Source: Isoetes taiwanensis
Taxonomy: Eukaryota; Streptophyta; Lycopodiopsida; Isoetales; Isoetaceae
Direction: 5' to 3'
Length of the DNA stretch: 64,000 nucleotides
Assembly: GCA_021234155.1 (NCBI GenBank)
Contig: JAJEKV010000002.1
Coordinates: forward strand, 16,405,428-16,469,427
Positions 21,086 through 53,879 of this stretch are shown one piece after another (position 1 is the stretch's first letter; every line of letters starts with the position of its first letter). Below the pieces are notes generated by a model. The model was given only the letters and a program-made list of their open reading frames with translations, ran no database searches and was not told the DNA's origin. The position numbers were made by a program, and so were the translations under genes.

Positions 21086-22971
21086 AAGCAAAACAATAGG
21101 CAAACCTAAATTGACATCGTTTAAGCAAAATCTCAACTTATCACATCAACAATAGAGTTTTAGTACATGTAATGTAAAAAATATTTACAAAACAGTTTCT
21201 AAATCTTATCTTTCCTAATCCTATGTGCCAAGTTCATGGTCTTGAGCATAATGGTCATCCTCTTAGCGTGAATGGCGCACCTTCTCGAAAAGTTGTGTCT
21301 GCTCTGCTTCGGCCACTTCCTGGCGAGACCCCACCATCATTGATGTGGCTCGTTAGTCGTAGTCCATCTTGAACTCCTGCATAAACCCTTGATGTAGGCA
21401 CTCGAAAAGAGGCACTGTTGGCAATGCCAGATCTCCCGCGACACTCTACTATGCTTGGAATTTGGCCCATGGCAGACTTTCTTCGAAGAATCGGGTCGAG
21501 GTGGTGGAGGCTTGCTTTTCGGCCCTAGTTGGTTGCCTTTGATGAACCTTGGGGTAAAAGCACGCTGTGGTGTTCCAATTCGGCTGTCCCCCCTGTCCCC
21601 CCAAAATGTGGCGTTGCATCCACCACTTTTGTGGTATGAAAGTATAATTATGGCACCGCTCAGCTGCCGGTATTTAAGAATAGAGTCCCGCTCAGCTGTG
21701 GGGGAAATTCTAATTTCAAAAACTAAAATTCAAATTCAAATTCCTATTCTTTGGCCCCTTCCTGTTCTTTGCCTACGTCCTGTTCTTTGGCTCCCTCCCT
21801 ACTGCGAGCTCCAATCCATTGTGGATATGGATGTCAATGAGGTAATCTCAGACACAAAACCGCATTTCGCATGGGAGAAAACGAAGAAGAACCAAGGAAC
21901 AAGAAATGTTGAAGAAAAGACGCCAGAGGAAAAGAAGAAGAGAAGAAAAATTGGAGCTTGCAGAATTGGCAGAAGGATCCGGTTCATCAAGAAGTGCAAG
22001 CAGTAAACGGCGTATTGTCCTTAATTTGCTAACGTCTTTCCATAAACAGACCAAAAGAATGGAGGATAGCACGAAGAAAGAAGTTTTACTTGAGTTTTTG
22101 AGGGATAAAACATTGGAAAAATTCATAGGTGAAGAATTAAAGGATTTGGAAGCCAAGAGCATCGTTATAAGGAGCCTCTGGGACTCCATGCAGAGTGTCA
22201 AACTCTCTACCAGCAATGACTGCCTAGCAGCCAAGAATAGCTGCCTTGTAATGTCAGACACGCCCGTGCGGTCTCAAACAAGTGACAAAATCAGCCCCGA
22301 GATCTTGGAAAGGTATTAGGTGTTCACCCAAGAAACCCAAAAAAAGGCAAAAGAAAAAGAGGGAAGAGATCGATTACAATGGTGGGAAATGGGTTTCTTA
22401 TAAGAGGGCTAAAAGATTCGATGCAATTTCGGATGAACATATAGAAAAGATTCAAAATTTTGGATTGAGAACACCCAGAGTGTCTCCTAACACAAAGGAT
22501 GTTAGAACTAGAAGATTGAGAGAAATGTAAGAGAAGAACATCTTGCCCACTATCCGGAGGAATCACAAAGTTAGTTTATTTTCATGTTATTCATGTTTTC
22601 TTAGTTAATATGGTGCTTAGTGTGGTGGTGCATGTGGTGGTTATTGTGTTGTACAGTGATTGTGGTGTACTGTATGCAGCATATGAATTGTGTGTAGTTG
22701 ACTCTAGTCTGAAATGCAATATTTAATGTTTGGAATATTATTAGAACATGACAGAATTGAGTACTCCTTACTGGGTGTGTGTACAGTCTAAAAATATTTG
22801 AGCTATAACTAACTGATCCTGAGATACAAATTTTTGTTGAATAAAGATAATTTTTTGTCAGATTCAAGCACGATATATTAAAAAAAGGGATCTTACAAAA
22901 TTTGGCTTTACAAAATTTGGCTTTCCATTGAAAGCTCTGTACCCGAGAACTAAATTTACATGCATGATTTC

Positions 22972-23460
22972 CTAAGCAACAGGAAATGCTGGTATGACTG
23001 GCTCGAGAACTGGTGCATCCAAAATTATTGTTTTCTGCACTAAAGCATCTAAGCTTTCTGCAGTCATCCCAGAATTTAACAGGATGAGGTTTGCCAGTGC
23101 TTCCTGCATCCCCTGGTGGTAAGTACGCAATTCTGCCAGTAAAACCCGTTGTTGCAGAGTCAGAGCGGACAAGTGACAGAGAACAAATATACCAGCTGCC
23201 CTTGCAGCAGCATGTAACATAAGCTGATGGACCTTGTCTAAGAGCTCTCTTCCTGTCAATCTGACTCCAAGCATAGCCATTGAAGGCCCAGCATCCAGTC
23301 TGTTGTATGCCTTTAGGTTGGATTCGAAATCAGCAAAGAAGGTGGATTTAGGCATATCCACCTTCAGAGATTGATCACGAGCCCTGTTTAACATGTGCCG
23401 AATGCCCTCCTCGGTCACCCTACAATAGCCGTAGTGATTTCTGAACATGGATCCTACCAT
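22972..23460 (-). CDS. Hypothetical protein, antisense within the intron
   Basis: A 162-codon open frame on the minus strand, higher in G+C than its surroundings, with a natural-looking, helix-rich composition (ELLDKVHQLMLHAAARAAG; LQQRVLLAELRTYHQGM). It has no signal peptide, membrane segment or motif I can name. It could be an exon of a nested gene, a gag-like fragment of an element that enlarged the intron, or chance. The start taken is the first Met after the upstream stop. Confidence 0.3.
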   Translation of the reverse strand: MVGSMFRNHYGYCRVTEEGIRHMLNRARDQSLKVDMPKSTFFADFESNLKAYNRLDAGPSMAMLGVRLTGRELLDKVHQLMLHAAARAAGIFVLCHLSALTLQQRVLLAELRTYHQGMQEALANLILLNSGMTAESLDALVQKTIILDAPVLEPVIPAFPVA

Positions 23461-23654
23461 GTTGCCGGAATGAACATGTTTCTATTTGGCGCGAATTGGG
23501 AATGAAACGCCAAAAATCAGACGTAGGAACAGGATTTAGGACCCAGATCCTTTTCTAATGATTAGAAGAGGAATGTAATTATTATCAGGGTGTACGAATT
23601 TCAGAAGTGTTTATGAGAGCAGGCTAGGCAGATTTTTTATGTCAGACAAAATAG

Positions 23655-24470
23655 GATAAAAGTGATGTGATGTGATGTGTGGTGTCGTGATGGTGTGGTG
23701 TGGTGTGGTGTGGTGTGGGTTGCGTTATGTCCATGGTGTCATGTGGGTGTGTGCATGTTAATGTATGATATGTGTGGATTCAATTTTATTTATTCTCCCC
23801 CTCACCCCACCACACCCCATCTATCCCACCACCATAGACTATCACCACATCTCTGCGACCACCACATTACCACGACATGCACACACATCCCACCACATCC
23901 CACGCCACACCCCTCCACCACCACCACCACACTCCACCACCACCACATCACACCACAATCCACAACACCACACCACACCACCACCACAACACCCCCCACC
24001 ACACTCCACCACCACCACACTCCACCACACACCACCACGACCACCACACCCCACCACCACACTCCACCACACCACATCATAGCACCATACACCACCACAC
24101 ACCACCACCACCACCCCCCCACCACCACGCCCCACCACCATGCCACACACCACCTCCACCACCACCACGCCCCACCACCACACCACACACCACTCCACCA
24201 CCACCCCCCACCACCCACCCCCCCACCACCACCACACACCACTCCACCACCCCCACCACCACAATCCACCACCACCCCCCTCCCCCCCCTCCACCACCAC
24301 TCCACACTCCACCATTTGGTGTATGGTGTGTGGTGAATGGTGTGGTGTGTGGTGGGGTGTGGTGAATGGTGTGTGGTAATGTACACAGCACTAAGGTGCT
24401 CGTTCTGGTGAATATGATGAGTGTGGGGCATGGTATGGTGCATGGTTTGGTGTGGTATACACATCCTAAC
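23655..24470. repeat. CACC-rich microsatellite flanked by TGGTG-rich arms
   Basis: The core (about 23805-24315) is built almost only of CACCAC, CCACCA and CACACC on the plus strand. On each side (about 23655-23760 and 24315-24465) the composition flips to TGGTG/GTGTGG on the same strand. The flanks can pair with the core, and the core has strong strand asymmetry. Long open frames here on both strands (His/Thr/Pro or Val/Trp/Gly only) are by-products of the repeat. Confidence 0.9.
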
Positions 24471-26789
24471 AGTTTAGTGTTCATTTCATGCAGATTCTAT
24501 TGTTCAAGAGGTTTCTGGACCAACATCCAGAAATTAAGATTCGTCTTCGAGCTTTTGAGAAGCTAAAACCCTGGTTGTTGTGAAATTGAAGGACTTCAAT
24601 AGTTGCTGTTGCATTCAGCACGTGAGGATGCAAATGCTAATGGATGGACTCAATGGGATGAGAACCAAACATCCGAAGAATTGCACTTGCACCTGCGATG
24701 TTTGTAGATCACATGAACTTGGTCAATGCAGGGCACACAAGCATAAAATTGCAAGTACAGGAAGCTTGTGAAGATCTATATTGTGTCCAAAGAGTGAATT
24801 AGATGAGTTTCACAAGAAGGCGTGCATCCTCGGAAATTGCGAGCTGTGTGGAATCAAGAAGTTTCAGACCTGTCCCATGGAAGGAAGTGGCAGTAGGAAA
24901 GTGAAATGGGAGTACATTGACTATGAAAAAGACAACGTCTCGAGTTCTGGTAGGAGACCGACTCATCAAGACAATGAGACAGTAACCCAAGGAGCTTCGG
25001 ATAAACCGAAAGAGCTGCGTCTAAAAATCTTGCCACCAGCATAATTTCGTGTACTAATGGCGGGCAAAGCAGGTTTAAGGAGCTACGGAGAATCTCCCGG
25101 CAGATGCATGTCTCTCGGTAGTGGATTTTGTAGAGAACTATACATTCAAGGAACAAGAGGAGGGCGGCAAATGATGTTTGGGTCAATAACCAGATTACCA
25201 TTTTGGTTCAAATAACATATCAAGATGACTCGATGGCGGATGAGATTATCAAGGAAACACATTACTATATGTATCAGATGATAGGGAACACGACACTTTG
25301 TTCGTGCAACACTGCTTCATGAAGCACCACAAATATTTGGAGCAGAAAGGAAGGGTTCCAAAGAGACATTATGTGTTTTCGGATGGAAAAGATCTCAATT
25401 CAAGGCTTCTAGACCATTTTACTTTGTGGCTAGGTACACAAACGACATCGATGTCTATATGATGTGGAATTTTTTGGTTCTAACCACGGGGAAAGGTGAA
25501 CACGATGGCAAAGTCTGCTGAGTTGAAGAGATGGTTAAGACAACCGCAATTAAAAAATACAGAAAGCATAAAATTGGGTAATGCTCATGAAGTGGTAGAA
25601 GTTGCGTCAAGAGATGTTTACTTGTGGAACATCCGAGTGGATGAACACATCTGAAACCAGTAAGAGGAAGAATATAAAAAGGTTCTTTTGGGAAGTCAAG
25701 GTGGAGGATATAGATAGAAAGAAAGCATGGGGTGCAGAAAGGATTTTGGACACTAGGCAGATCCATTGTGTACATGCATTCAATCTTGAATCTCCATTGC
25801 AGTTGCACACGAGGGAACTTTCATGCTTCTGCAGCTACTGCTTGGATGGCATGTGGGACAGTTGTGTGAACAAGCACTACGTTGATGATTGGAAACTTCA
25901 AGTTATTGTACCATCCTCCAATGTGCATGCTGACATTGAGGACCGTAAATCCAGCAGGTCCTTGTTCTCCTCCAATCCCACGATGTTAGCAGAGGCACTT
26001 AGAGTTGGTGATAATTTTGCTGTCGTTGCTCCGAAAGGGAATGATGAGGGTTCTGAATTTTGGATTCTGATGTGCACAAAACTAAAATGGATAGTGGAGA
26101 AAGACTTCCAACTCAATGGAACATGGTACCTCGCCGGTGATAGTGTCATAGAAGGTATGTATTACAAGAAGGGCGCAAGATCAACCGTCAGCTATGATCT
26201 TTGCAGTAAAGACGCCTTAGGCATAGTATTCACAACACAGATCTGTGCAATCAGACTTCACATGCCACCAACTAAACGTCAAAACAGGACTGTATATAGG
26301 CTGGATCCTTTAGATGAGGAGAAAATTTTACATAATTTACCCCCAAGTTTTTTTTCGATGATGATGAAATGTAAAACCATTCTCAGTAGTTTTCTAACTC
26401 ATGTGAAGTTTTGTGCTTCAGCTGTGAAAATGAGTTTGTCTTGATTTCTTTTGAAGATTTGAATTCTTCTAAAACACTTGATTCCTTTGTTTGTGAGATG
26501 AATTGAATATGAATTTTCATTGAAATGAATCGAGATTACAATAACAATTATGTACATAAGAAAGATATACAAATGATTTAAGTAACGAGGTGACTCATGC
26601 ACCTACATACTTCCCAATACATATGTTCCTCTCGGTTCAAGCTTTTGTTGCTTCTAATCTTAAAACTTCAAGCATGAACACTCTAACATCAACTAGATCC
26701 TGGTCTGAAATGTCCACAACCTGCAGTTAACCACACTTTGTCAATAACAGAGTTTGGTTTGTCTGCTGCATTTAAGTTGACTTACTAGA

Positions 26790-33607: not shown

Positions 33608-34608
33608 TCATCGGGATAAAAAAAAACCCCGCCGGGAAATGGGAGAATGGACTTCAACACCAGCAGTATGAGTGGCCTTAGCATGATGAAAGGCGTCAGC
33701 AAAGATTGCATGTGATGGTGTAAAAATACGTAGTTTTCCACGAATCAGTGCAGCCTTACCACCATTCTTTTGAATGTCCTGGACCTTTTGCAAATTCTGG
33801 CGTCTGGCTAACTGTTGGGACTTAGTAAGATCAAAATCCAGATAGAGAGATGTCCCTTTCAATTGCTTGGCCTGCTTGAGGATATCCATTTTAGTACTCA
33901 CATTTCGCACTGTAAATTTCACTATGCACGGGTGGTGGGGCTGCAATGCTCCAACCCTATGTGCAACAGTGACAACAACTGGTGTTGTGAAGTCTAATTT
34001 AGCTAACACCAAAGTCTGTACCTTCTGTTGCAAGTCCTCTGATGCTTCTTCTGGCATGCCACGAATTACCAGATTACACTGACGGTTGTGGCTATCAATG
34101 TATTCTCTACGTCTCTGAGCAGATGTAGATGCAGGTGTAGATGCAAAACCTGTTACATGAGAGTTTTGAAATTGGGGGGAGGATGAACTAGGCATGGATC
34201 TCACATTAGGATCATGATGCTTTGAAGAAGAAGTTGGAGGTGCCTTGGTTGCATGAGAATAGGAACGTTCCAAAGCAGCAACTCGACTAGATGTGTCCTT
34301 AGCAAGCTCAGTCACTTGGCAGGTCATGCTTTCTTCCAATGCTCGCATGCGAGTATTACAACTCGTAGACACCTCAGAGACATGGCGGAGTAAATCTTGT
34401 CTTTGCTTGCCAATATCAACCATTAGGTGCTCCACAGTCATATGACAAGCAGCAAACTCCAACTTTGCGCCCTCAATTGCTTCCCAAAGCTTTGCATATT
34501 CAGCATGAATTTTGCCAGTGAGCGTTGCAAGGTCGTTACGATACTTTGCCAATTCAGACCTCAATGCACATCGAAATTGTGTCATCTCTTGTTGCTGCAT
34601 GTGCAAAG
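33608..34608 (-). pseudogene. L1-like ORF1 protein, C-terminal two thirds
   Basis: The minus-strand frame (open 34654-33608) encodes a coiled coil (about 34590-34260), a Ser/Pro/Thr-rich linker, then an RRM-type domain (CNLVIRGMPEEASEDL at about 34080; VAHRVGA; CIVKFTVRN) and the C-terminal domain (LYLDFDLTKSQQLARRQ; GKLRIF). This is the layout of LINE-1 ORF1, an RNA-binding chaperone for the transposon RNA. The start Met at 34654 and the next 15 codons lie inside the neighbouring transposon's terminal repeat, so the true N-terminus is elsewhere: it continues at 42297-43020 on the other side of that insertion. No ORF2 endonuclease or reverse transcriptase follows downstream. The part shown has no internal stops. 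Confidence 0.75.
34605..34608. other. Target-site duplication AAAG, left
   Basis: AAAG directly precedes the left terminal inverted repeat and matches AAAG at 42293-42296 directly after the right one. Confidence 0.75.
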
Positions 34609-34637
34609 GGGTGAAAGTATGCTGGTGGGTAGCAAAA
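34609..34637 (+). repeat. Left terminal inverted repeat (29 bp)
   Basis: It starts GGGTGAAAGTATGCTGGTGG and ends TAGCAAAA. It is identical to the complement of 42264-42292. Just inside, at about 34647-34670, CAGCACC occurs three times in a row or nearly so, a likely subterminal protein-binding cluster. Confidence 0.9.
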
Positions 34638-34941
34638 AAACGCGACCCCAGCACCCAGCACCAGCACCCTTCATACTATTTTTTCCACCCTTCACCAATT
34701 GAAGTGTAACCTATGCTATGCCCGTCACTTCACATAGGGCGTACCCGTTTCAATCATAACCTTCTTACCGCCCACCGTAACTAATGACTGTGACCCGAAA
34801 GGGTAGCGAACTTTGAATTTGTAATTTCGAACCGTGCTCCCCACCTTTTGCTACTCCGGCCAAATAGCCCGCGGAGAAGAAGCTCTAGAATTTCCGGATT
34901 CACTCCAAGCTTAGTATTCCAAAACTCAAACGCCAAAAACT

Positions 34942-36949
34942 ATGGTGAAGAAGGTTGTTAATCCGCCGGCTCAGCCAGCAATTCCAATGGATGCCATGCG
35001 CAGGGTAAGCAAAATGCAAATCCAATTTTGATGGCTTATGGTGCCCTGTTAATTTGTTTTTCTTGATTTCTTTTAGCCCAGAAGGAACGTGCCCCTAAGA
35101 CCCGACCTGGCTGATTGCCGAACTGAGGAGGACTTCCATGCCTACGCGGGTCTATCAAACGAGGGTGTGCATCCCTCTCAATTTCGAACGGATGTGATAT
35201 CTGCAGCAGAATATAATGAGGTTTGGGACACCAATGGTGTCATTCCGAACAAGACATCCATCGACAAAATAAGGCCAGAGCACGAAGAAGCTCTAATTGA
35301 GCTGTTGAGCAAGATATACCCAGAAGGATTGAAGAACAGAGAAGTAAGGAAGACGGTTTCCTTTTTATTTGCATTCAACAACTGCAAGAGGGCCAAGCAG
35401 GATCCAGAAAATTTCAAGGTCAATTGGGCAGCAGTGGCAGCAAAAAGCAGAGCCTATTCGAGCAAGGTCAAGAGTGAACCAAAGACACGGGGTGGCCCCG
35501 CGGAACACAGCAGAGCCCAAAGAAATCACAGCAGACAACAAAGACTGAAAAGCATTGCGAGAAAAGCCTACCGGCCAGTAATCTGCCAGAAAATTAGAAG
35601 GGAGGTTGTCATTCAGAGTACTTCAATGTGTCCAGCAAAGATTCTCGGCTTTTATGGGGAAAATATTTCCCGTCCCGGAAAGCATGATCCAAGATATGCA
35701 GGAAGCCCTAAAATTGCAGCAGAATGACCTAGTGTCAAAGAAGGAACAGGCTGCACAATCTGAGGCAAAGGGAAGCTTCTTCTCGGCTGCAGAGGGGAAG
35801 TTGAAGACCATAAAGGATAATATTGCACGCCTTCAAGCTAATCGCCCGATCCTAATGCAGGTGTGTCTCACGAGATTCATACTTTGGAGAGGGAGAAAGA
35901 TATGGCAGAATATATGTTGAAGTCCCTACTTGAAATGGGGGGTGGGCCAATAGATCAAACCTGTGTAGAAAAGGTGGCTGCACTAACTGCTGAGATTGCC
36001 AACAACGAGTCCCTCCTTGCAAAAGCCCAGCAGCACTTAAAGAATGTCACCAGGCTGAGGGAGATGACCAAGAGAAATGATCAGCTGGTCAGCATCACTC
36101 CAATACCATTCCGATTGCCAATTGGAGATGAGGAGAGATGCTCCACCTGTGGTCTTGCATTCCAGGATGATTACACCCTCAGCCTGCGGATGAAATGTGG
36201 ACATCATTATCACGTTAGCTGCACCAGTTTGCTCATGGAAAAAGGATGCTGCCTCGAGTGCACAGAGACCATTCCTACTGGCTTAGTGCAGGAAATAGGT
36301 AAGCTTAATACAGTAAAGCAGGAAGTGTTGCATGCTGGAACAGCTCACAAAACCGAGAAGAAGATAATTGATGTTGATGAGCATGTAGACACAACTCCTG
36401 GTAGCAGCAGGAAAAGGAAACAGCAAATCACACCAAAAAGTAAAAGGACCCCAGGATCAGCCAAGCACAAGTCCACAAGGGTTCACACTCCACAGCCAAG
36501 ACATGGGAAAAAAGGTACATGCCTGTTTTCAGGCTCTGATTTTGAATTGACAAAGATCGAGAAGGTCGTAGACATTGGACAAACAAACTACCAAAGACTC
36601 TTCAAAGACACCGGCAAAGACTTGGCAAAGACAGTCTTTGGAGACATAAAAGCATTTGAATCCAAGGGAGATTCAAGTAGTAGTGATGGTGCCAACAATT
36701 ATAGTATAGTTCCAAATTCGCGCATTTTGCCTCTACAAAGGCCTCCTCTAACACCGTTCTTTGCAGGGGAAGGAAAACGATGGCGAAGATGTCGGCAATC
36801 GATTCGACGGTCGTTAAGCGGTGTGAACAAAGTTGACACCGGTCAAGGGCCGTGAAGGTTGTGGAAGAAGAAAGTGAGGGTGAGTCAGAAAATGACCTTG
36901 ATGAGGACGCCCCCATAGAAGTAGCATTTGGAAAGAAAAACATGGCTAA
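34942..36949 (+). CDS. Gene A: coiled-coil protein with RING-H2-like zinc finger
   Basis: Exon 1 is 34942-35004 (MVKKVVNPPAQPAIPMDAMR, then R), followed by GTAAGC; exon 2 starts at 35077 after TTTTAG, in phase. The N-terminal 150 residues (RPDLADCRTEEDFHAYAGLS onward) are a globular region of unknown family. A coiled coil follows (about 35660-36060). A finger at about 36139-36262 has CSTC, CGHHYHVSC and CLEC, fitting a RING-H2 pattern, so a ubiquitin or SUMO ligase role is possible but not shown. The tail is basic, then acidic, and ends AFGKKKHG and a stop. Frames change near 35461-35606 and at a GT repeat near 35863. The first zone is full of the CAAAG-type errors seen throughout this block, so the true gene may be intact. 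The duplicated block contains only its last 100 codons. Confidence 0.65.
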
Positions 36950-37302
36950 TGTAATTTTGCCTTATGTATTTCGGGCAAGCAAACCTTGATTTTGCAAGAC
37001 AACCCTAAACCATCAGCCAAAAGGTTTTTGTTCAAACAATTAATATATTTGATCCCCTGTTTTATTCCACCTTTAATGTGCAAATTTTGGTTTGGATTAT
37101 TCAACTTAGGATTTCAGAAAAACTTGTCTCGCAGAAAAAAGAAGGCAGCCAATGGTTATACTTAGTGAATCGATGAAGAAGACAATACTGAGATAAAGAA
37201 GTGCCAAAGACAAACTCTAACATACAAAAGGTTAATCATTATCCCTGTTATATTTCAGAATGTGTTTCAGAATTTCAGTTGTTAATTGCAGCTCATCCTT
37301 GC

Positions 37303-38341
37303 ATGCGGAGAACAAGACAGTCGCGGAATGAAGAAACCGAGGACAAAGGCAAAGCAAGGGTTCGATAGCCGGAAACACCCATACATTGGGGCGTGGAGAT
37401 ACCAATAAGGATGAATCGACTATGGCTATCAGCACTCTCCATCATCCGGTAGCAAAGATAAAGCAGAGTCCAAAGAAGGTTGCAAAGATCGCCCAAAGAC
37501 CTCCCGATAGCACTTCCCGCCAGAGTCCAACACACATTGCAAAGACGCACAAGCACGATGCAAAGACACATCGACCGGCGGTGGTTGCAAACGCCCAAGG
37601 ATGGACACCCGCACGAAAGTTGATGGTCTTTGGACGTAAATGGTGTAATCGGCACGCATAACAATGAGAGGAGAATGAACGGGAAAATCTTGCCTCCACC
37701 ACAAACCAAGCATGTTGTAAAAAGAAACCGCAAATAAGTACCTCATTTGCGCACTGTGGTATCATGAGTTTGTGGAGTGGGCGCAGAGGTTTGATATTGT
37801 TATTTGGAGTGCTTTCTCTTCGGAACACAAGGGATATGGTGGATGCATTGTTCCCTGATTTGCAGACCAGATTCTTGAAGGTTTATGGTCAAGAGCATTG
37901 CTATGCATGCAAGCATCCAAACAGACCAGAAAAGCAGATTTTTTTCAAGGAGTTGAAGGTTGTACTTGAGGATTTTCCTCAAAATCATGGTATGATTTTC
38001 TTGGTTGATGACAGCCTACACAAAGGGTTTCTAAACCCTGCACACACAACCCTTCCCATTATGCCTTTCAAGGGGCAAGAAGAGGACAACTTTTTGCAGA
38101 AGTTTGTGTGTCCAACTTTGGAATACTTGTCTTCCCATGCTGTACAGGAAACGATCTCACAGGTTGACATCACTGATGCATGGTTGGAAGAGGAGACAGT
38201 TGTAGTCTTTGGATTACTTGCCTCAACAACTATCTTGTCTCGGCCTACTATATCCTCAATGCTCCATTAGAAGTACAAAGGCAGCTGCTGGGCACCCTTC
38301 CTGGCGACCAGCATGACTCTGAAGACTTCGATGACTCATGA
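37303..38341 (+). CDS. Gene B: FCP1/NIF-type HAD phosphatase-like protein
   Basis: The ATG at 37303 is chosen because copy 2 has MRGE there and coding style begins at once; it could also be a later exon, since TTGCAG lies just upstream. After a Gln/Lys-rich region, KLMVF followed by a damaged x-Asn-Gly-Val (about 37618-37640) sits where the FCP1 family has its first motif (plants often have DLNGxL). Then come HEFVEWAQRFDIVIWSAF (37768-37815), NTRDMVDALF, FFKEL, and FLVDDSLHKGFLNP (about 37998-38040), which carries the acidic pair of motif IV. The true C-terminus is in the next frame, CLNNYLVSAYYILNAPLEVQ, ending with acidic SEDFDDS at 38341. FCP1-type enzymes remove phosphate from the RNA polymerase II tail. 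Whether the first aspartate is present cannot be read because that site is corrupted in both copies. Confidence 0.65.
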
Positions 38342-38671
38342 AGTAACCATTGTACAGTACTTTTTTGTAATATATATGTATGATTACTTTGTCTTATCTT
38401 CAGTATTGAGTGACATTGAGTGATGTTCTAATCTTGAGTGTACAATTTTCTGTAATATATATCAAGCTTACTCTCCAATACTACAAGCATTGTTTCCAAT
38501 ACTAAGATACTCCAATAATTCAAACCAATACTACAAACATTGTCTTAGGGGCATTGTCTCCAATACAATGATCAAAATTTGAGACAAGTACACAAGTAAC
38601 TACAGATTTGTTACAATGATAAAACAACTAGGCCAAGCATATTCAACCTTCATATGGCAGACTGTCAAGGA

Positions 38672-41600
38672 TCATCTGGTGAGTAGCCTGTTCAAGGGAA
38701 AATCTGTTGGTGCCGTGAATCGATTCATCTCAAACTTGATAGCCGATCACGATGATGATCTTTGGAAAGTCAGGCCTTTGTCTTCAAGTAGCTCCCAACT
38801 ACCATCTGGCTGGGCAGCATAGTACAAACCAGCCAACACATGTTCATCCACATTGAAGGTCTGACCCCAGCTATCCTTGACATTTGACCACATAGAAATT
38901 TGACTGCATTCTCCCCGATTTCCCCGCGGGCTACAACAAGACAAAGTTATCACCTTCCCCACGTTTCGGGATAGCCATTCTCCATCACCTTCAAAAATGC
39001 CTCATCGATTTGGTCTTCATTACCTTCACCAAGAGACTTATCCGGCTTTAGTGTAACATATTTCCAATTCTTCAACTGTGCTTGTTCACACAAGATGACC
39101 GATTTCCTTTCAAAAGCGGTTACCACGTAAACAACTTAAACCTCTATGAGCCACCCTTGTGCTTGATTTGGCCAAGTATGTCCGGATGTCGTGGTATTTG
39201 CTTGGTCCCTTCCACGCATACCAAATCCGGTCTGTCCTATCAACATCATCCTTTCCAATTACCCGAAGTACCGCGAAGGAAACAACAAGTATTGCATCTC
39301 ACGACAAAGATAATACAAAGACTACTCATCACAAGACAAACAGTTCACGTGACAAAGACTTAAAGCGGATGAAAGCACTATTCAAAGACATTCTGGCTAG
39401 CTTTCTGTGCAAAGACTACTCAACGTATCACGCCAGATGAAAGCATAATACCTTTTGATGTCCCCGTTGTTGGTACCTTCATTCCAGCGAAGGTTGCGAA
39501 TTCACATGCATCGGCAGAAGCACCCTAAATCTCACCCCATCATACTTGAGTCGCTCTCTAGTGAATGCCCCTTTAAGGACTCCCGCCTTGCCCATCGTGG
39601 CTCTCCCCTTACCATGGGCTGTCCCAAAGAAATTCCATACTATTTCCTTCCCTAGCTCATGGTGATATCTTGGTAGGAAATAGAATGGCGGGCAGATTTG
39701 AATTGGCTAGAACAACCATCCGACCAAACTATATGCCGGAGAAATCTACACCATTTGATACAAGCCATGAATTGTGCTTTCTAAGACAAGGTTTGCAAAA
39801 AAAGAGTGTCATGAAGCTTGTCATCACTCAAGTAAAATGGGTTTCCTTCAATAGCTTTTCGATCCCTGAATTGATGTCCATCCTATACGTGATGTGGACG
39901 AGAATTGTTATCGGTCATTGTGCCAATGCCGGCTTTGAACCTCCCTTTGTATTTTTATCTTTGTAATTCTCTCGCAAAATCAATTACGTAAACAATGGTG
40001 TCATCTTGGATATTGTCCGGGCAACTCGAATTGCATGGCCCGCCATCTAGCCCCTCAGAATTGTGTGGCACCTAATATCTTCAATGTGGAACACAGATAT
40101 GAAATGAAATCCTTCAATGGCGTTCTCTTGTAAGACAATGAGGACTGGCTTTGGTCCTTTCTTTTTTCCCCTTGCCATTTGAGGTCTCATCTTGTGCATA
40201 GGTTTTAGTCAGGTCCCACCAGCTTGCTTGGATTTCTTACTTTTGTTTCCCTTCTTCTCAACTTGTGGCCGCAGCCTTCAGTCGTGGTCCCACCAACTAC
40301 CTTGGATTTCTTACTTTTGTTTCCCTTCTTGGTGGCATTGGCTCTTTTCTTTCTCACGCCACACGGCACCTCCTTGGTAACTAGATGCAACTCCACCAGC
40401 CTCTTCTCGTCTCCACGGAATCAGACAAAGGTCTCAGAGCATAAAACGGAAGATTAGCGCAAGTTGAAAGCACAAAAGCGGTTTTCCGGATGACAAAGAC
40501 ATATCAAGAGATGTTGCGGCATGCAATAAAGAGAGTATTACCTTTTCAAACGTCTTCCATTCAAGCAAGAACTCATGATTCTCTCTCTCTTGGACATATA
40601 GGAAGAGTTTTTATGCCACACTTCCGACATGTATGCGCATCAAGCGGTCATGTTTATGCCATTCTTCACCCTCGCTCTTGTTGCAAAACCACGACCCTCC
40701 GAGCTTCGGCTGGTTGAGTCATACATATATTGGCTGGCCGAACCGCCTCACCAGTCCACAGACCTCGCGCAGTGCACTTGCACTCTTCACCATGAAATCC
40801 GGGGCCACGACCTTAATGCATTCGGGGCTACCCCGGCATACTTCAACTTCATATGGTATATGCAACAACAGGGTTTCCCTTTCTCGATACTTTCTTTACA
40901 TAAATAGGCTTCAACTTCTCGAAAGCCTTTAAGCAAACAGGTGTTCGGGATGTGCCTTTTGTATTGTTGAAATAGCTCCAAATTGAATGGTGGCCGTTGG
41001 TTAGAAATATTTATGCAACAATAGCAAAGAAAAAATTTGTATGGAAACTTATACCTGTGTGACCTCCATAAGGTGCAAGGGATAAGAAATTCGGAAGCCT
41101 GACTCTCCAACAGTGTTCACAACATCTTTCTTGCAAGGAGAGACTCTGCTATTTTGTTTCCAGAATTTTGTTATGCTTTGCTTGCAAGCTGTGGGTGAGA
41201 GAATCGCACCTCAACCTCCTTTGGAAGCTAGACCACGGACCATTTCCAAGGATGGCTTCCGATTTTCTTAATGCGGCAGTTGCAATTGTTGACCTCATGC
41301 AACCTATCATAAGAAATATTGCACATTAATCAATGAACATATCTCATCCAGATCACTCGCCAGATACAAGCACTTAAAAGCACTTAAAAGCACGAAGAAG
41401 CTACTGGGCATGAAAGCAAGAATTAGATGCACCTAACAGCCCTGCCATAGTGGAATTGCATCTCGATTTTGTGGAAGAAGCCATCACCAGTGTCGAGGTT
41501 CTGGCTCTCCAAACATCATGGTTCCTTTGCCTCTTTGTGGCTGCCATTGTCTGTTTCAAGTTGTTGAGCGGCACCCCACGCCTTTGCACTCCTTTGGATT

Positions 41601-42106
41601 TGGCAAAATTCCGTGTTCTCGAGATTTCCATTTTCGTGGTGATGAACCACCCTCTTCATCACATCGGCCTTGAGTTGGGTGAATGTTTTTGGTGAGCTTA
41701 TTGAAGTAATCAACTACTTGCTTGGCTATTTCTTGCCTGCGTCTCATGCTCGAGATCCTCCCGTTCACATTTGCTTTTCTCATCTTATTCCGTAATCAGT
41801 ATTTCTCTTTTTCGCGCATCCAATTTCTTGTAAATTGCGGAGGAAACCGGATCTTCACTTGATATTTCCCGTGTTGCATTGACATCCAACAAATCGGAAC
41901 AACGTATTGGGATTCATCAGGCCGAAAATCCAATGCTAAACGTGTGATTGCCTCCAGGCCGGTATCAGGGAGCGCCATGAAATTCCTGAGAGAGGGAGGA
42001 TAAGTGAATTGGAGGGAGAAATTTCGCGGGCCATGACGAAGTAATCCAATTTGCAACGTACTACCACACCACTCGCGCGAAAATCCAGCCAAAAGCCCAC
42101 AATCAT
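38672..42106 (-). CDS. Gene C: large DDE-like protein, candidate transposase
   Basis: Start ATG at 42106 (MIVGFWLDFRASG), 186 bp inside the right end; stop at 38674-38672. In order on the minus strand: an N-terminal region (DESQYVVP; YKKLDAAKRE; EIAKQVVDYFNKLTKNIHP), RVSPCKKDVVN (about 41130), a 79-bp intron 41054-40976, LFQQYKRHIPNT, PCCCIYHMK (about 40860), Cys/His clusters, a Lys-rich double repeat (KKGNKSKKSK), then the core, best read in copy 2: LSDDKLHDTLFVQHC, VWSDGCSSQFKSARPFYF and FFGTAHGKGEHDG. A Cys module (CFCGNC..W..CVNKHRLKNW, about 39150) and a C-terminal GDNFAVV-type domain follow. SDG Asp and GKGE Glu are 38 residues apart, as in DDE enzymes. From memory the family matches large uncharacterised proteins of cnidarians and other aquatic organisms. 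Many shifts coincide with CAG/CTG errors. Confidence 0.7.
40976..41054 (-). other. 79-bp intron of gene C
   Basis: The minus strand reads GTCACACAG, then GTATAAG, and the intron ends TTTGGAG before CTATTTCAACAATAC. Joined, the protein reads MEVTQ then LFQQYKRH, in frame. The decayed relative at 21.8-26.4 kb has an intron at the same place. Confidence 0.6.
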
Positions 42107-42241
42107 TTTCCTAACGGCTCGTTCGTGAGGTGGACGTGCGAGTACATGAAGGGCGTAAAAAGAAATGACGGGCAGTTACGCCCATCAGCACCCAGATTAA
42201 GCAAAAGCAGGGGTGCTGATAGCGGGCTAAAACCCTGCTAT

Positions 42242-42265
42242 AAGCATGCGTCCGGACGCATGCTT
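42242..42265. repeat. Perfect 24-bp palindrome at the right subterminal
   Basis: AAGCATGCGTCC is followed at once by its exact complement, directly adjoining the right terminal repeat. A weaker inverted pair, AGCAGGG and CCCTGCT, lies just inside at about 42210-42240. The same palindrome is present in copy 2 at about 52648-52671. Confidence 0.9.
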
Positions 42266-42292
42266 TTGCTACCCACCAGCATACTTTCACCC
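42264..42292 (-). repeat. Right terminal inverted repeat (29 bp)
   Basis: Exact complement of the left repeat, ending ACTTTCACCC and followed by AAAG at 42293-42296. Confidence 0.9.
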
Positions 42293-42296
42293 AAAG
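42293..42296. other. Target-site duplication AAAG, right
   Basis: Matches AAAG at 34605-34608. Both lie at the same codon position of the interrupted ORF1 (CTTTG on the minus strand). Confidence 0.75.
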
Positions 42297-43020
42297 TAGC
42301 TGTAAGAATGTCAAACTTGTTCTCTAGGTCTTTTTGAAGCAAATTGACATAGAGAGGAAGACGTGCTGGACGAGGGACCTTGGAGAAATCATCTGGGGTC
42401 AACGCCTCAGCAATCCGCTCCCTTTCATCATCCTGAGTTGAACCTCCAACGCACGTTGGAGGTGTGGTTGAGCGATATGCACTTCCAACACCTGTAGCAG
42501 ATGCAATCTGCTCCCCCGCAGCACCATGTGGTGAACCTCCAACGCGTGTTGGAGGTTCATCTGGGTTAATTGCACTGCCAACACCTGTAACGGATGCAAT
42601 CAGCTCTCCATCATCATGTGTTGAACCTCCAACGCATGTTGGAAGTTCGTCTGGGCCATTTGCTCCACCAACACCTGTGGGAATTTGCGATGGACAATGC
42701 TTATCCCGTTGAGAGTAAAGATGCAATGCCCTATTTAATGTCTATTGTTTAAGATGAGCATCTTTATTGAGAGATCGAGTCACATCACCTTTGTAACCGT
42801 TATCTTTGTTCGTGGATCTGAGAGACTTCAAGGGGTGACGAGCAGGCCCTGACGGATTTGGCTGATCAAAGGGATTAATAACCACCATAAAAAAATCCCC
42901 TAGCTGCTTCAAAGGAATTGAAGAAGCCATTACTTCCAGAGGGCCGAAATGGGCTGATCTATAATAGTAATCAGTCCCGAAATCAAAAAGTCCAAAAAGC
43001 TGAAATGTATAAGGATGCAA
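42297..43020 (-). pseudogene. L1-like ORF1 protein, N-terminal third
   Basis: The minus-strand frame begins at 43020; the more likely Met is MASSIPLKQLGDFF near 42928. A single in-frame TAG at about 42742 is followed by continuation in the same frame. Three tandem repeats of about 32 residues (TGVGG or TGVGS, then PPTCVGGS) precede LPLYVNLLQKDLENKFDILT. At the AAAG site the transposon begins. Across the insertion the next codons are LHMQQQEMTQF at 34606, in frame, leading into the coiled coil and RRM. The frame after the insertion point (ESMLVGSK) is transposon sequence. Confidence 0.65.
42430..42690. repeat. Minisatellite, about 96-bp period, three units
   Basis: Each unit contains CAACACCTGTA and AACCTCCAACG..CGTTGGAGGT, the latter an inverted repeat. 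It encodes the triple repeat in the ORF1 N-terminus on the minus strand. It recurs at about 52840-53090 in copy 2, with CAG/CTG-type differences. Confidence 0.8.
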
Positions 43021-43385
43021 ATGGTCCGAATCATATGTCCTTGAAAAGATCCAGACATAAGCTTTCCAATGAGCCCGAAATCACCTGATTCTGATGTCTC
43101 TAGCTCAAGTTAGGAGCTCGAGAAGTTTTGCCGTCGGGCATCAAAAAGGCAGAGCGCCAAAGGAGCGCCAAAAGAAGTGATAGAAGAACAAATGCACTTT
43201 CAAATACACATAGAACTAAAATATAGAGGATATCGGAGACTGCAGGGCGACCCGATAAGCAAGAACAATGAACCATAAAATGAGAAAACGAAAAATTGAA
43301 TATAGATATGACAAACAAGCTCCAATATGATAAGAGGGAAGGAGCTCAAGAGAACGCCGATGATTGCAAAAGAGGAAGGAGGCAG

Positions 43386-43466
43386 TATAAATAGGAGATG
43401 CAAGGTAATGCGTCGCCATCCAAGGAATGTCGGTTCTAGCAATAGAACCGTGGCATTCCTAGGATG
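43386..43466 (+). promoter_or_regulatory. TATA box followed by a 50-nt hairpin (copy 1)
   Basis: TATAAATA at 43386-43393 is followed about 25-30 bases downstream, where a transcript would start, by an inverted repeat at 43417-43466. The arms are CATCCAAGGAATG, T, CGGTTCTA and TAGAACCG, TGG, CATTCCTAGGATG, around a loop of a few bases. The same unit occurs in copy 2 (hairpin 53830-53879) and, partly, at 58389-58505. It looks like a promoter with a structured RNA 5' end, perhaps from an LTR or non-autonomous element. Confidence 0.5.
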
Positions 43467-43469
43467 GGT

Positions 43470-46400: not shown

Positions 46401-47060
46401 ATGAACAACTTGAGATCTTTTTTCGAACGAAACGTAAATATGCCCATCTGGATGAAATGATCCAAAACAAAATACCTCAAGGACTAAAACCTTACATGAA
46501 ATGGGTAAAAATGACATCTCATAAAACATACTACGCGCAAGCAAAAAGGAGAGAGATCTGGGGCTAAAAAATGACACAAAAAACACGTTACATACAAAAA
46601 CCAATGCAAAAAGATAAAAGACAAAAAATGAACAACCTAAGTCTCCATAAATGAAAAGTCCAACTAACTAATACCCATAAGTGTCCCTACAACAACAAAA
46701 CAAAAAGGGCCAACTAAATAGGACCATACATGAACTGCAAATTGGTTCGGCTCATGTCTATTCAACAATAACCACTAATATGCCGCTAAACAATATTAAG
46801 GAAAGACAAAATTTCGTGCAACGATGTATATGTAACTAGCAACACAACAAAAAATTACCCCAAACAATCGAGCTAGAAAAATGTCTACTGAAAAACTTGA
46901 ATCTAACAATTGTATATTGAGAGATGTGGACCCATGACCATGAAGAGAAACCCCAAACAAATGACTCTAAAGAATGGTCTAATGGAATCCAAAAATTTAT
47001 GTATTGAGAGACGTGAATCCATGACCATGTAAGATACAAAAAATCCAATAAATTGCATAC
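43470..47060. other. Purine-rich plus strand with recurring ATGGAGCAAAT motif, no gene
   Basis: The plus strand is strongly A/G-rich, mainly 43500-45000. Variants of ATGGAGCAA recur at irregular spacing, for example near 43523, 44127, 44275, 44311, 44535, 44607, 44642, 44669 and 44823. The minus-strand open frames here are Leu/Phe/Ser-rich and follow from the base bias; I do not call them genes. Confidence 0.45.
45691..45795. repeat. Two 52-bp tandem units
   Basis: ATGTGCATTAATTGAAAACT and the following ACTCAGAAGAAAACAC occur twice with two or three differences. The same pair is present in copy 2 near 56102-56205. Confidence 0.9.
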
Positions 47061-47072
47061 AAAGTGACTTGA

Positions 47073-47387
47073 ACAGTGCTGGAGACACCAAAGCATGCTG
47101 AATCCAAGGGAGATTCAAGTAGTAGTGATGGTGCCAACAATTATAGTATAGTTCCAAATTCTGCAGCTGCCTCTACAAAGGCCTCCTCTAACACTGTTGC
47201 TGCAGGGAAGGAAAACGATGGCGAAGATGTCGGCAATCAGATTCAGACAGTCGTTAAGCAGGTGAACAGGTTGACACGGTCAAGGGCCAGGAAGGTTGTG
47301 GAAGAAGAAAGTGAGGGTGAGTCAGAAAATGACCTTGATGAGGACGTCCCCATAGAAGTAGCATTTGGAAAGAAAAAACATGGCTAA
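47073..47387 (+). pseudogene. Gene A 3' fragment (copy 2)
   Basis: This open frame of 103 codons holds only the acidic tail of gene A (SSSSDGANNYSIVPNSAAAS to AFGKKKHG and a stop). It is cut at the duplication junction and lacks promoter, coil and RING. It is useful as the better reading of the tail: copy 1 is shifted in the same place near 36720-36840. Confidence 0.85.
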
Positions 47388-47732
47388 TGTAATTTTGCCT
47401 TATGTATTTCAGGCAAGCAAACCTTGATTTTGCAAGACAACCCTAAACCATCAGCCAAAAGGTTTTTGTTCAAACAATTAATATATTTGATCCCCTGTTT
47501 TATTCCACCTTTAATGTGCAAATTTTGGTTTGGATTATTCAACTTAGGATTACGTAAAAACTTGCGAGAAAAAGAAGGCAGCCAATGGTTATACTTAGTG
47601 AATCGATGAAGAAGACAATCTGAGATAAAGAAGTGCCGGCACAAACTCTAACATACAAAAGGTGTTATCGTATATCTGTTATATTTGAGAATGTGTTTGA
47701 AATTTCAGTTGTTAATTGCAGCTCATCCTTGC

Positions 47733-48766
47733 ATGAGGGGAGAACAAGGCAGTCGTGTGAATGAAGAAACCGAGGACAAAGGCAAAGCAAAGGGTTACCG
47801 ATAGCGGGGAAACACCCATACATTGGGGGCGGGGAGATACCAATAAGGATGAATCGACTATGGCTATCGGCACTCTCCATCATCCGGTAGCAAAGATAAA
47901 GCGAGTCCAAAGGGGTTGCGGCAAAGATTGTCCGGCACCTCCCGATAGCACTTCCCGGAGAGTCCAACACACATTGCGGCCGCAGACAAGTGCGATGCGG
48001 CACACATCGGCGGTGGTTGCAAACGTCCAAGGATGGACACCCAGACGAAAGTTGATGGTCTTTGGGCGTAAATGGTGTATCTTGCACGAACCAATGAGAG
48101 GAGAATGAGCGGGAAAATCTTGCCTCCACCACAAACCAAGCATGTTGTAAAAAGCGCAAATAAGTACCTCATTTGCGAGACGAGGGGTATCATGAGTTTG
48201 TGGGTGTGGACCGCAGAGGTTTGATATTGTTATTTGGAGTGCTTCTCTACGAACACAAGGGATATGGTGGATGCATTGTTCCACGATTTGCAGACCAGAT
48301 TCTTGAAGGTTTATGGTCAAGAGCATTGCTATGCATGCAAGCATCAAAACAGATTTAAAAGCAGATTTTTTTCAAGGAGTTGAAGGTTGTACTTGAGGAT
48401 TTTCCTCAAAATCATGGTATGATTTTTCTTGGTTGATGACAGCCTACACAAAGGGTTTCTAAACCCCCGCACACACAACCCTTCCCATTATGCCTTTCAA
48501 GGGGCAAGAAGAGGACAACTTTTTGCAGAAGTTTGTGTGTCCAACTTTGGAATACTTGTCTTCCCATCTTTGTCTGTGAAACGATCTCACGAGGTTGACA
48601 TCAGCGATGCATGGTTGGAAGAGGAGACGATTTGTAGTCTTTGGATTCTTGCCTCAACAACTATCTTGTCTCGCCTACTATATCCTCAATGCTCCATTAG
48701 AAGTACAAAGGGGCTGCTGGGCACCCTTTCTGGCGACCGGCATGACTCAAGACCGATGACTCATGA
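47733..48766 (+). CDS. Gene B, copy 2: FCP1/NIF-like protein
   Basis: Same gene as 37303-38341. ATG at 47733 (MRGEQGSR). GDTNKDESTMAIGTLHHPVA (about 47837) and KLMVF (about 48050) are readable. The segment HEFVxVD..IVIWSA (about 48190-48240) and the DD motif (about 48434) are split by small indels at CAG/CTG sites that differ from those in copy 1. Comparing the copies shows that neither is a faithful reading. Stop TGA at 48764-48766 after the acidic tail. Confidence 0.55.
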
Positions 48767-49097
48767 AGTAACCATTGTACAAGTACTTTTTGTAATATAT
48801 ATGTATGATTACTTTGTCTTATCTTGGTATTGAGTGACATTGAGTGATGTTCTAATCTTGAGTGTACAATTTTTACGTAATATATATCAAGCTTACTCTC
48901 CAATACTACAAGCATTGTTTCCAATACTAAGATACTCCAATAATTCAAACCAATACTACAAACATTGTCTTAGGGGCATTGTCTCCAATACAATGATCAA
49001 AATTTGAGACAAGTACACAAGTAACTACAGATTTGTTACAATGATAAAACAACTAGGCCAAGCATATTCAACCTTCATATGGCAGACTGTCAAGGAT

Positions 49098-52000
49098 CAT
49101 CTGGTGAGTAGCTTTGTTCAAGGGAAAATCTGTTGGTGCCGGGGAATCGATTCATCTCAAACTTGATAGCCGATGCGTGATGATGATCTTTGGAAAGTGG
49201 GGCCTTTGTCTTCAAGTAGCTCCCAACTACCATCTGGCTGGGCAGCATAGTACAAACCAGCCAACACATGTTCATCCACATTGAAGGTCTGACCCCAGCT
49301 ATCCTTGACATTTGACCACATAGAAATCTGCATTCTCCTGATTTCCCTGCTCGGCTACAACAGCAAAGTTATCACCTTCCTCTACGTTTCCGGATAGCCA
49401 TTCTCCATCACCTTCAAAAATGCCTCATCGATTTAGTCTTCAATTACCTTCACCAGTAGACTTATCTGGCTTTAGTGTAACATATTTCCAATTCTTCAAT
49501 CTGTGCTTGTTCACACAAGATGACCAGTTTCCTTTCAAACAGTTACCACAGAAACAACTTAAACCTCTATGAGCCACCCTTGTGCTTGATTTGGCCAAGT
49601 ATGTGGGATCTTTGTGTATTTGCTTGGTCCTTTCCACCTCGCGCGATCCGGTGGGTCTGTCTATCAACATCATCCTTTCCAATTACCCGAAGTACACGCA
49701 AAGGAAACAACAAGTATTGCATCTCACGACAAAGATAATACAAAGACTACTCATCACAAGACAAAAGAGTTCACAGACAGCACTTAAAGCAGATGAAAGC
49801 ACTATTCAGCACATTACAGCAGTTTACAGGCAGCACTACTCAACAGAATACAGCAGATGAAAGCATAATACCTTTTGATGTCCCCGTTGTTGGTACCTTC
49901 ATTCCAGCGAGTTGCGAATTCACATGCATCAGCAGCACCCCTAAATCTCACCCCATCATACTTGAGCTGCTCTCTAGTGAATGCCCCTTTAAGGACTGCC
50001 CCTTGCCCATCGTGCTCTCCCTTACCATGGGCTGTCCCAAAGAAATTCCATACTATTTCCTTCCCTAGCTCATGGTGATATCTTGGTAGGAAATAGAATG
50101 GTCGGGCAGATTTGAATTGGCTAGAACAACCATCTGACCAAACTATATGCCTGGAGAAATCTACACCATTTGATACAAGCCATGAATTGTGCTTTCTAAG
50201 ACAGTGCTGCACAAAAAGAGTGTCATGAAGCTTGTCATCACTCAAGTAAAAATGGGTTTCCTTCAATAGCTTTCTGATCCCAGAACTGATGTCCATCCTA
50301 TACGTGATGTGGACGAGAATTGTTATCTGGTCATTGTGCCAATGCTGGCTTTGAACCTCCCTTTGTATTTTTATGCTGTAATTCTGCAAAAATCAATTAC
50401 GAAACAATGGTGTCATCTTGGATATTGTCCGGGCAACTCCCTGAATTGCATGGCACGCCATCTAGCCCTCAGAATTGTGTGGCACGAATATCTTCAATGT
50501 GGAACATGTGATATGAAATGAAATCCTTCAATGGCGTTCTCTTGTAAGACAATCGAGGTGGCTTTTGGTCCTTTTTTTTTCCCCTTGCCATTTGAGGTCT
50601 CATCTTGTGCTGCAGTTTTAGTACGTGTCCCACCGGCTTGCTTGGATTTCTTACTTTTGTTTCCCTTCTTCTCAACTTGTCTTTTGCGGCTTGTTGCGTC
50701 CACCAACTACCTTGGATTTCTTACTTTTGTTTCCCTTCTTGGTGGCATTGGCTCTTTTCTTTTCTGGCGCCACCGGCACCTCCTTGGTAACGCTTAGCGG
50801 TCTGCAACTCCACCAGCCTCTTACGTCTCCAGCGGAATGCGTAACAAGGTGCGTAGCATAAAAGCGGAAGATTAGCGCAAGTTGAAAGCACAAAAGCGGT
50901 TTTTCGGCCGGATGGCAAACACATATCGGCATGTTGCGGCATGCAATAAAGAGAGTATTACCTTTTCAAACGTCTTCCATTCAAGCAAGAACTCATGATT
51001 CTCTCTCTCTCTTGGACATATAGGAAGAGTTTTTATGCCACGCCGACATATGCGCATCAAGCGATCATGTTTATGCCATTCTTCACCCTCGCTCTTGTTG
51101 CAAACCACGACCCTCGAGCTCATTTGGTTGAGTCATACATATATTGGCCGGCCGGAACCGCCTCACCAGGTCCACAGACCTCGCGGGTGCACTTGCACTC
51201 TTCACCATGAAATCCGGCCACGACCTTAATGCATTCGGGGCTACCCGGCATACTTCAACTTCATATGGTATATGCAACAACGGGTTTCCCTTCGATACTT
51301 TCTTTACATAAATAGGCTTCAACTTCTCGAAAGCCTTTAAGCAAAGCGGGGTGTTCGGGGATGTGCCTTTTTTGTATTGTTGAAATAGCTCCGGTGAATG
51401 GTGGCCGTTGGTTAGAAATATTTATGCAACAATAGCAAAGAAAAATTTGTATGGAAACTTATATTGTGTGACCTCCATAAGGTGCAAGGGATAAGAAATT
51501 CGAAGCCTTGACTCTCCAACGGTGTTCACAACATCTTTCTTGCAAGGAGAGACTGCTATTTTGTTTCGAATTGTTATGCTTTGCTTGCAAGCAGGGGTGA
51601 GAGAATCGCACCTCAACCTCCTTTGGAAGCTAGACCACGGACCATTTCCAAGGATGGCTTCCGATTTTCTTAATGCAGCAGTTGCAATTGTTGACCTCAT
51701 GCAACCTATCATAAGAAATATTGCACATTAATCAATGAACATATCTCATCGGCAGATCTTTCAGCCAGATACAAGCACTTAAAAGCACTTAAAAGCACGA
51801 AGAAGCACGGGCATGAAAGCAAGAATTAGATGCACCTAACAGCCCCGCCATAGTGGAATTGCATCTCGATTTTGTGGAAGAAGCCATCACCGATTGTCGA
51901 GGTTCGGCTCTCCAAACATCATGGTTCCTTTGCCTCTTTGTGGCTGCCATTAATCATTTCAAGTTGTTGAGCAAAGCACCCCACGCCTTGCACTCCTTTG

Positions 52001-52512
52001 GATTTGGCAAAATTCCAGGTTCGAGATTTCCATTTTTTCGTGGTGATGAACCACCCTCTTCATCACATCGGCCTTGAGTTCGGGTGAATGTTTTTGGTGA
52101 GCTTATTGAAGTAATCAACTACTTGCTTGGCTATTTCTTGCCCGTCTCTCATGCTCGAGATCCTCCCGTTCAGCCCATTTGCTTTTCTCATCTTATTAGT
52201 AATCGTATTCTCTCTTTTCGCTGCATCCAATTTCTTGTAAATTTGCGAGGAAACCGGATCTTCACGTGATATTTCTGTGTTGCATTGACATCCAACAAAC
52301 GGAACAACGTATTGGGATTCATCGGGCGAAAATCCAATGCTAAACGCGTGTGATTGCCTCCAGGCCGGTATCAGGGAGCGCCATGAAATTCCTGAGAGAG
52401 GGAGGATAAGTGAATTGGAGGGAGAAATTTCGCGGGCCATGACGAAGTAATCCAATTTGCAACGTACTACCACACCACTCGCGCGAAAATCCAGCCAAAA
52501 GCCCACAATCAT
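49098..52512 (-). CDS. Gene C, copy 2: DDE-like protein
   Basis: Start at 52512, again 186 bp inside the right terminal repeat; stop at 49100-49098. This copy gives the best core reading: a clean frame at 50389-49814 with LSDDKLHDTLFVQHC (Asp near 50237), VWSDGCSSQFKSA (Asp near 50133) and GKGEHDGQGAVLK (Glu near 50016). LSCFCGNCLKGNWSSCVNKH lies at about 49570-49520, and FNVDEHVLAGLYYAAQPDGS at about 49285-49225. The N-terminal frame 52512-52063 is also clean where copy 1 breaks. If the locus duplication is real, the plant carries two nearly identical transposase-like genes 10 kb apart. Confidence 0.65.
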
Positions 52513-52669
52513 TTTCCTAACGGCTCGTTCGTGAGGTGGACGTGCGAGTACATGAAGGGCGTAAAAAGAAATGACGGGCAGTTACGCCCATCAGCACCCA
52601 GATTAAGCAAAAGCAGGGGTGCTGATAGCGGGCTAAAACCCTGCTATAAGCATGCGTCCGGACGCATGC

Positions 52670-52698
52670 TTTTGCTACCCACCAGCATACTTTCACCC
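52670..52698 (-). repeat. Right terminal inverted repeat in copy 2
   Basis: Identical to 42264-42292 and again followed by AAAG (52699-52702) and the ORF1 flank. Copy 2 has no left terminal repeat of its own. Confidence 0.9.
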
Positions 52699-52702
52699 AA
52701 AG

Positions 52703-53798: not shown

Positions 53799-53879
53799 TA
53801 TAAATAGGAGATGCAAGGTAATGCGTCGCCATCCAAGGAATGTCGGTTCTAGCAATAGAACCGTGGCATTCCTAGGATG
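53799..53879 (+). promoter_or_regulatory. TATA box and hairpin (copy 2)
   Basis: TATAAATA followed by the 53830-53879 hairpin, identical to copy 1 at 43386-43466. Confidence 0.5.

Follow-up and report, generated by a model that had tools for sequence, protein, structure and literature searches.

A likely Sola-type DNA transposon of Isoetes taiwanensis with RING and FCP1-like genes facing its transposase

The element, its ends, and its family of copies

The stretch of DNA analyzed here, a 64,000-nucleotide window of the genome of Isoetes taiwanensis (contig JAJEKV010000002.1 of assembly GCA_021234155.1), carries an element 7.68 kb in length that is bounded by 29-bp terminal inverted repeats (TIRs) and by a 4-bp target-site duplication (TSD) of sequence AAAG (Table 1). 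Within these ends lie gene A, for a RING/coiled-coil protein, gene B, for a protein with an FCP1/NIF-like domain, and, on the opposite strand and facing both, gene C, for a transposase. We consider it likely that this is a Sola-type cut-and-paste transposon with a facing accessory unit made of A and B. The original prediction, made from the letters of the window, had described a closed unit with this gene order and these gene types, and both parts of that description are borne out.

The two TIRs are identical over their full 29 bp in inverted orientation, where the chance expectation is 0 matches, and the element has ends of the GGG...CCC type. When the element and one AAAG are removed, the flanks join into a single open frame across the site (KFDILTATLHMQQQEMTQF), which is direct evidence for insertion with a 4-bp duplication. 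Because this frame spans the emptied site, the element sits inside a host frame that we take to be an L1-like ORF1. The window element is a closed, real unit bounded by TIRs and a TSD.

Other copies with the same ends, on which the original prediction had made its claim depend, exist in the genome (1.658 Gb in 1110 contigs). A search with 221 bp covering the left end returned 610 first-look candidates. The 40 that were scored, the window included, are 97–100% identical to the query, and 23 of these matches have their start at precisely the first TIR base. Besides that of the window, 39 places were thus scored, and 20 of these were fetched. Fifteen of the 20 hold both ends, and in 14 of the 15 the element is flanked by matching 4-bp sequences (TGAG, AAAC, TGCT, AAAA, AAAA, AAGT, AATA, TGTA, ATGA, TTAT, TGAG, CTAG, ACCG, and TAAT), with the remaining copy (L018) agreeing at three of four positions. 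Another eight copies extend from one end to the other (7628–8223 bp, or 7.63–8.22 kb), and several other fetched copies lack internal parts. Together with that of the window, the nine end-to-end copies share 97–99% pairwise identity outside CG and CHG contexts, and so the element family is young as well as multi-copy.

These copies also bear on the idea that A and B derive from some other element, or are host genes, and that the assembly put them between the ends. The window does contain many sequence errors, and 10.4 kb of it is duplicated in tandem. However, the eight other end-to-end copies have the same content at other places, and a search with gene B sequence gave 455 candidates at first look, with the 40 scored ones at 94–100%, so that B is a regular part of the family. 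We therefore regard an assembly origin for this arrangement as highly improbable.

The reading frames of the window element are broken, and the nature of the breaks can be judged from the two copies in the window (36639–42292 compared to 47080–52698). Inside the element, 52–53% of CAG/CTG and CCG/CGG triplets overlap a difference, and 6–10% of CTA and CAA triplets are touched by one; in the far flank only 6–11% of CAG and CCG triplets are touched. Small insertions occur among the differences, for example CTG versus CTTTG. Given that the published assembly of this species used nanopore reads, as stated in a passage of PMC8566536, basecalling errors at methylated CHG/CG sites probably account for a large part of the differences. 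Such errors do not explain all of them. Outside the CAG/CTG and CCG/CGG contexts, 30 substitutions and 77 insertion or deletion columns in 3692 persist in the element and 2 substitutions and 5 such columns in 3634 in the flank, so that the residue lies mainly in the element. We dropped the notion that broken frames mark a dead element, because the differences concentrate at CAG/CTG and CCG/CGG sites. Separately, the clustering of differences at CHG/CG sites in the transposon and their rarity in the flank resemble a methylation footprint in a nanopore assembly.

Table 1. Features of the window, with strand and remarks
Feature	Position	Strand	Remark
Left TSD, AAAG	34605..34608	.	Matches right AAAG
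Left 29-bp TIR	34609..34637	+	Carried by 20 of 20 fetched copies
Gene A, RING/coiled-coil protein	34942..36986	+	Interrupted frames, owing to sequencing errors and probable introns
Gene A, probable first exon	from 34942	+	
Gene A, N-terminal segment	from 35077	+	Family not recognised
Gene A, coiled coil	about 35582–35920	+	By eye
Gene A, RING open reading frame (ORF)	35842–36852	+	RING followed by acidic tail (basic/acidic)
Gene A, RING-H2-like finger, C-x2-C-x15-C-x-H-x2-H-x2-C-x9-C-x2-C	36139..36261	+	Eight candidate zinc ligands
Gene B, FCP1/NIF-like domain	37300..38341	+	Start inferred
Gene B, motif I, D-V-N	37633–37650	+	
Gene B, Lys motif	about 37941–37964	+	
Gene B, VDDS motif	38004–38027	+	
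Gene C, DDD-type transposase	38643..41978	-	Probable introns
Gene C, Asp 1 (VIDFA)	near 39981	-	From sequence
Gene C, Asp 2 (WSDG)	near 39720	-	From sequence
Gene C, Asp 3	near 39600	-	From sequence; frame broken in window element, read from second copy
Right 29-bp TIR	42264..42292	-	Identical to left TIR
Right TSD, AAAG	42293..42296	.	Matches left AAAG
Second copy, left-truncated (gene A tail, B, C, right TIR)	47080..52698	+	Within 10.4-kb tandem duplication
Third TIR	52670–52698	-	Inside tandem duplication
Distant transposase remains, same kind as gene C	21846..26441	+	

The transposase and its fit to Sola

Gene C encodes a DDD-type transposase with a predicted RNase H-like fold and predicted catalytic activity. 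We found 57 homologues, a moss protein among them, and three aspartates (D205, D290, and D331) are invariant across the 17 that were aligned; all three map onto the RNase H-like core of the predicted transposase model. The earlier description of gene C as DDE-like thus stands as regards a transposase, whereas the residues are rather of the DDD type, with features fitting the known Sola superfamily.

Passages of PMC10741241 describe Sola elements as having a DDD transposase, a 4-bp TSD, a length of 2–9 kb, and TIRs of 11–1124 bp, and report them to be uncommon in flowering plants, and a passage of PMC9033089 lists Sola1 for the moss Physcomitrella. The window element is like the Sola elements (Sola1, Sola2, and Sola3) in its three invariant aspartates, in its 4-bp TSD, which is also perfect in nearly all other two-ended copies, in having a size and TIR length within these ranges, and in a link to mosses, from which Sola is known and from which one homologue of gene C comes; it differs from them by the addition of the facing RING and FCP1-like gene or genes. 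Thus, gene C and the 4-bp duplication fit the Sola superfamily, as matched by described features rather than by reference sequences.

Alternatively, the element might represent an unnamed superfamily that is near Sola but outside it, defined by the set of A, B, and C. Four transposase homologues (P0001, P0019, P0028, and P0057) have no Pfam match at E ≤ 1, a search of NCBIfam with transposase homologues gave nothing meaningful, and narrow literature searches, on the gene combination and on Sola in lycophytes, returned no described Sola element with RING or FCP1-like genes. Several points weigh directly against the assignment we prefer: it was made from descriptions rather than by comparison with a reference Sola transposase, a plain Foldseek search gave no matches at E ≤ 0.001, and in a 53-sequence alignment that includes fragments D205 and D290 are conserved at more than 90% while D331 is not on that list. 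However, the DDD signature, the 4-bp TSD, and the dimensions of the element agree with Sola as described in passages of PMC10741241, and the moss homologue of gene C is matched by the listing of Sola1 from a moss (PMC9033089, likewise in a passage). On balance, we judge a separate superfamily to be unlikely, if not strongly so. A scan of viral and prokaryote contigs with a transposase profile gave no useful result.

Among other superfamilies, Ginger also produces a 4-bp TSD, and its transposase is Gypsy-integrase-like and matches the model named rve. This candidate was rejected on finding no rve match, at Pfam E ≤ 1, in the same four homologues.

MuDR, CACTA, and Harbinger elements are like the window element in encoding a second protein beside the transposase, which differs in belonging to families other than RING or FCP1-like. 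Closer at hand, a passage of PMC3627910 reports that some Sola2 elements carry Fanzor1, a TnpB-like extra gene, and these elements likewise combine a Sola-type transposon, an extra protein gene, and 4-bp TSDs. In contrast, the Fanzor1 region varies between related families, whereas the RING and FCP1-like genes described here recur in distant relatives. The combination of A, B, and C was not encountered in the narrow literature searches, by which its novelty is neither refuted nor proven.

A RING and FCP1-like partner of the transposase

The RING finger of gene A is recognized mainly from its ligands. Eight C3H2C3 zinc ligands are readable in gene A and in the relative L041, with spacing that is equal up to the sixth ligand. 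Pfam RING models score below the gathering threshold in gene A, with E values of 0.0075–0.013 for single ORFs and 0.49 for a composite, and zf-RING_2 reaches 17 bits compared to a cut-off of 27.3.

Gene B is more readily identified. In the copy L022 it forms an uninterrupted frame of 349 amino acids that matches PF03031 (NIF) with an E value of 1.7e-20 (73.7 bits versus a cut-off of 21.8, profile positions 1–155 of 160) and UBLCP1 in the PDB with an E value of 0.0014. The element's protein is like the FCP1/SCP/UBLCP1-type phosphatases of this family in matching the whole domain and in keeping the IWSA, Lys, and VDDS motifs. It differs from them in being encoded by a transposon and in motif I, which reads LDVNGVL, with the second Asp replaced by Asn. 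All three B proteins showing motif I (P0058, L038, and L039) have D-V-N, and the D-x-D-x-(T/V) pattern is absent from each. In HAD/FCP1 phosphatases, motif I is D-x-D-x-(T/V), and its second Asp serves as the acid/base. Because this is the residue that is changed, phosphatase activity of the B protein is doubtful and, as judged from its residues, is probably weak or dead.

Evidence that A and B matter to the element comes from distant relatives. When the same genome was searched with a homologous transposase as query, 12,612 first-look candidate sites were returned, and many of the 70 that were scored have stop-free frames of ~600–670 amino acids; the transposase family has seemingly undergone a large expansion. 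Eight regions were picked from the 70 scored sites for a stop-free transposase, and in four regions of this non-random sample (L033, L037, L038, and L039) a homologue of B faces the transposase from the other strand. The B protein of the element matches those of L038 and L039 with E values of 8.7e-20 and 3.6e-17, and the L033 and L037 proteins are tied to these two and to each other at E values of about 1e-8 to 1e-16. A RING gene is present in the same order in both of the relatives for which upstream DNA was read. Its product has a long coiled-coil-like middle and measures 474 amino acids in the joined regions L041 and L038, to which that in L039 and L042 is 64–67% identical.

Relative to these two elements, identity of the window element is 50% in the core and 36–37% in the C-terminal part of gene C, and 29–31% in gene B. 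Between the two relatives themselves, A shows ratios of nonsynonymous to synonymous substitution rates (dN/dS) of 0.29 and 0.31; B stands at 0.28, and C at 0.13 and 0.22. With all values below 0.32, A, B, and C are under purifying selection between these relatives.

The relatives also suggest that A and B are one spliced gene. In both, the coding match of A runs without a stop codon up to a splice donor (ACAG|GTACAT and GGAG|GTATGT), the exon that follows begins in a compatible phase, and the FCP1 exon begins directly after an acceptor (TTACAG|G) without a start codon. These splice sites, read by eye in the two relatives, support a single RING-FCP1 gene. The original prediction counted three separate genes; the three gene types are present, whereas A and B are probably one gene.

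We weighed the possibility that A and B are passengers, that is, pieces of host genes captured once by the family and without a role in transposition. Several observations favor this possibility or otherwise count against a conserved partner. Differences in A, B, and C between family copies are indistinguishable from neutral by a codon test (lowest p 0.07, for B), and a protein database search with A and B (hand-joined queries, word-sharing search) gave nothing at E ≤ 1e-3. No B was detected in the other four regions (L034, L035, L036, and L040) within the 9.9 kb read, although L035 was read only 3.0 kb downstream of C, and in its close relative L037 (transposase 81% identical) B lies 4.8 kb downstream. 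The L033 and L037 B proteins have no Pfam match and reach the element's own B with E values of only 0.017 and 0.008. Gene A matches its counterparts only at the RING (22–23% over 55–56 amino acids; E 7e-4 without composition correction and 0.007–0.016 otherwise), and comparison of the N-terminal segments by hhalign gave no significant match. Finally, a TIR and TSD were sought and not found for the two relatives holding both genes, el38 and el39.

Against capture as passengers stand the facing B genes in half of the distant relatives' regions, the RING gene in both relatives where it could be sought, and the low dN/dS values of A and B. Moreover, once inserted, the copies of any transposon diverge in a way that looks neutral, and so neutrality among family copies is weak evidence against function. 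We therefore consider passengers quite unlikely, and A and B, taken as one unit, are probably a recurrent, selected partner of the transposase rather than chance cargo. For the same reasons, we dropped the view of A and B as the odd cargo of a single family. The original prediction spoke of an unusual three-gene cargo; the genes are there, whereas the arrangement is not the peculiarity of one family. Its claim of novelty thus shrinks, because the features of the transposase fit a superfamily already known, and grows, because A and B recur as a selected partner. A search for gene B in phages gave no useful result.

Possible roles and further observations

The product of gene C would cut at the GGG...CCC ends and join the element to 4-bp staggered cuts in the target, presumably using two-metal chemistry by analogy with known families. 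A and B would be spliced into one protein with, in order, the N-terminal segment, the coiled coil, the RING-H2 finger, and the FCP1-like domain. We propose that the spliced product serves the element as an accessory factor, for which a RING ubiquitin ligase or a scaffold seems the likeliest form. Its FCP1-like domain, probably a weak or dead phosphatase, may bind a phosphorylated host protein, such as the RNA polymerase II tail or part of the silencing machinery, and this binding could help an element that is heavily methylated to be expressed or to move. We offer this role tentatively, as one whose chances fall well short of even.

One broader possibility, to which we give similarly guarded credence, is that these elements represent an old lineage of plant DNA transposons defined by an obligatory RING-coiled-coil-FCP1 fusion gene. 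Its product, with a disabled D-x-N site, would hold on to phosphorylated host proteins of transcription or silencing, so as to ubiquitinate them or displace them, and would be an accessory type not described before.

A single plant genome with 12,612 first-look transposase sites (70 scored) has a recurrent second gene of a kind that is unexpected in a transposon. If the A/B protein is a true accessory factor, the ways in which such elements move or avoid silencing could be tested through it. For the phosphatase family itself, an FCP1-like domain that travels on a transposon with its active site altered amounts to an experiment done by nature.

Two further features of the window were not noticed in the original prediction. 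One is the third TIR, which ends the left-truncated second copy. This copy lies in a tandem duplication of ~10.4 kb (36639–47075 and 47080–57486) that takes in the right 5.6 kb of the element and is 95% identical overall and nearly identical in its flank part; it may be genuine or an assembly artefact. The other is the remains of the distant transposase at about 21.8–26.4 kb, for which ends were sought and none found, and beside which no A- or B-like gene was detected. Its apparent intron contains microsatellite sequence.

Other ORFs were observed in the regions of the transposase relatives. A small ORF starting MAR(F/L)K occurs in L033 (3318–3624) and L035 (8331–8631), with 51% identity between the two, and may be another element gene. 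In L034, an ORF with DUF7869 (positions 1333–1879, E 2.3e-30) lies beside the transposase relative and possibly belongs to another transposon.

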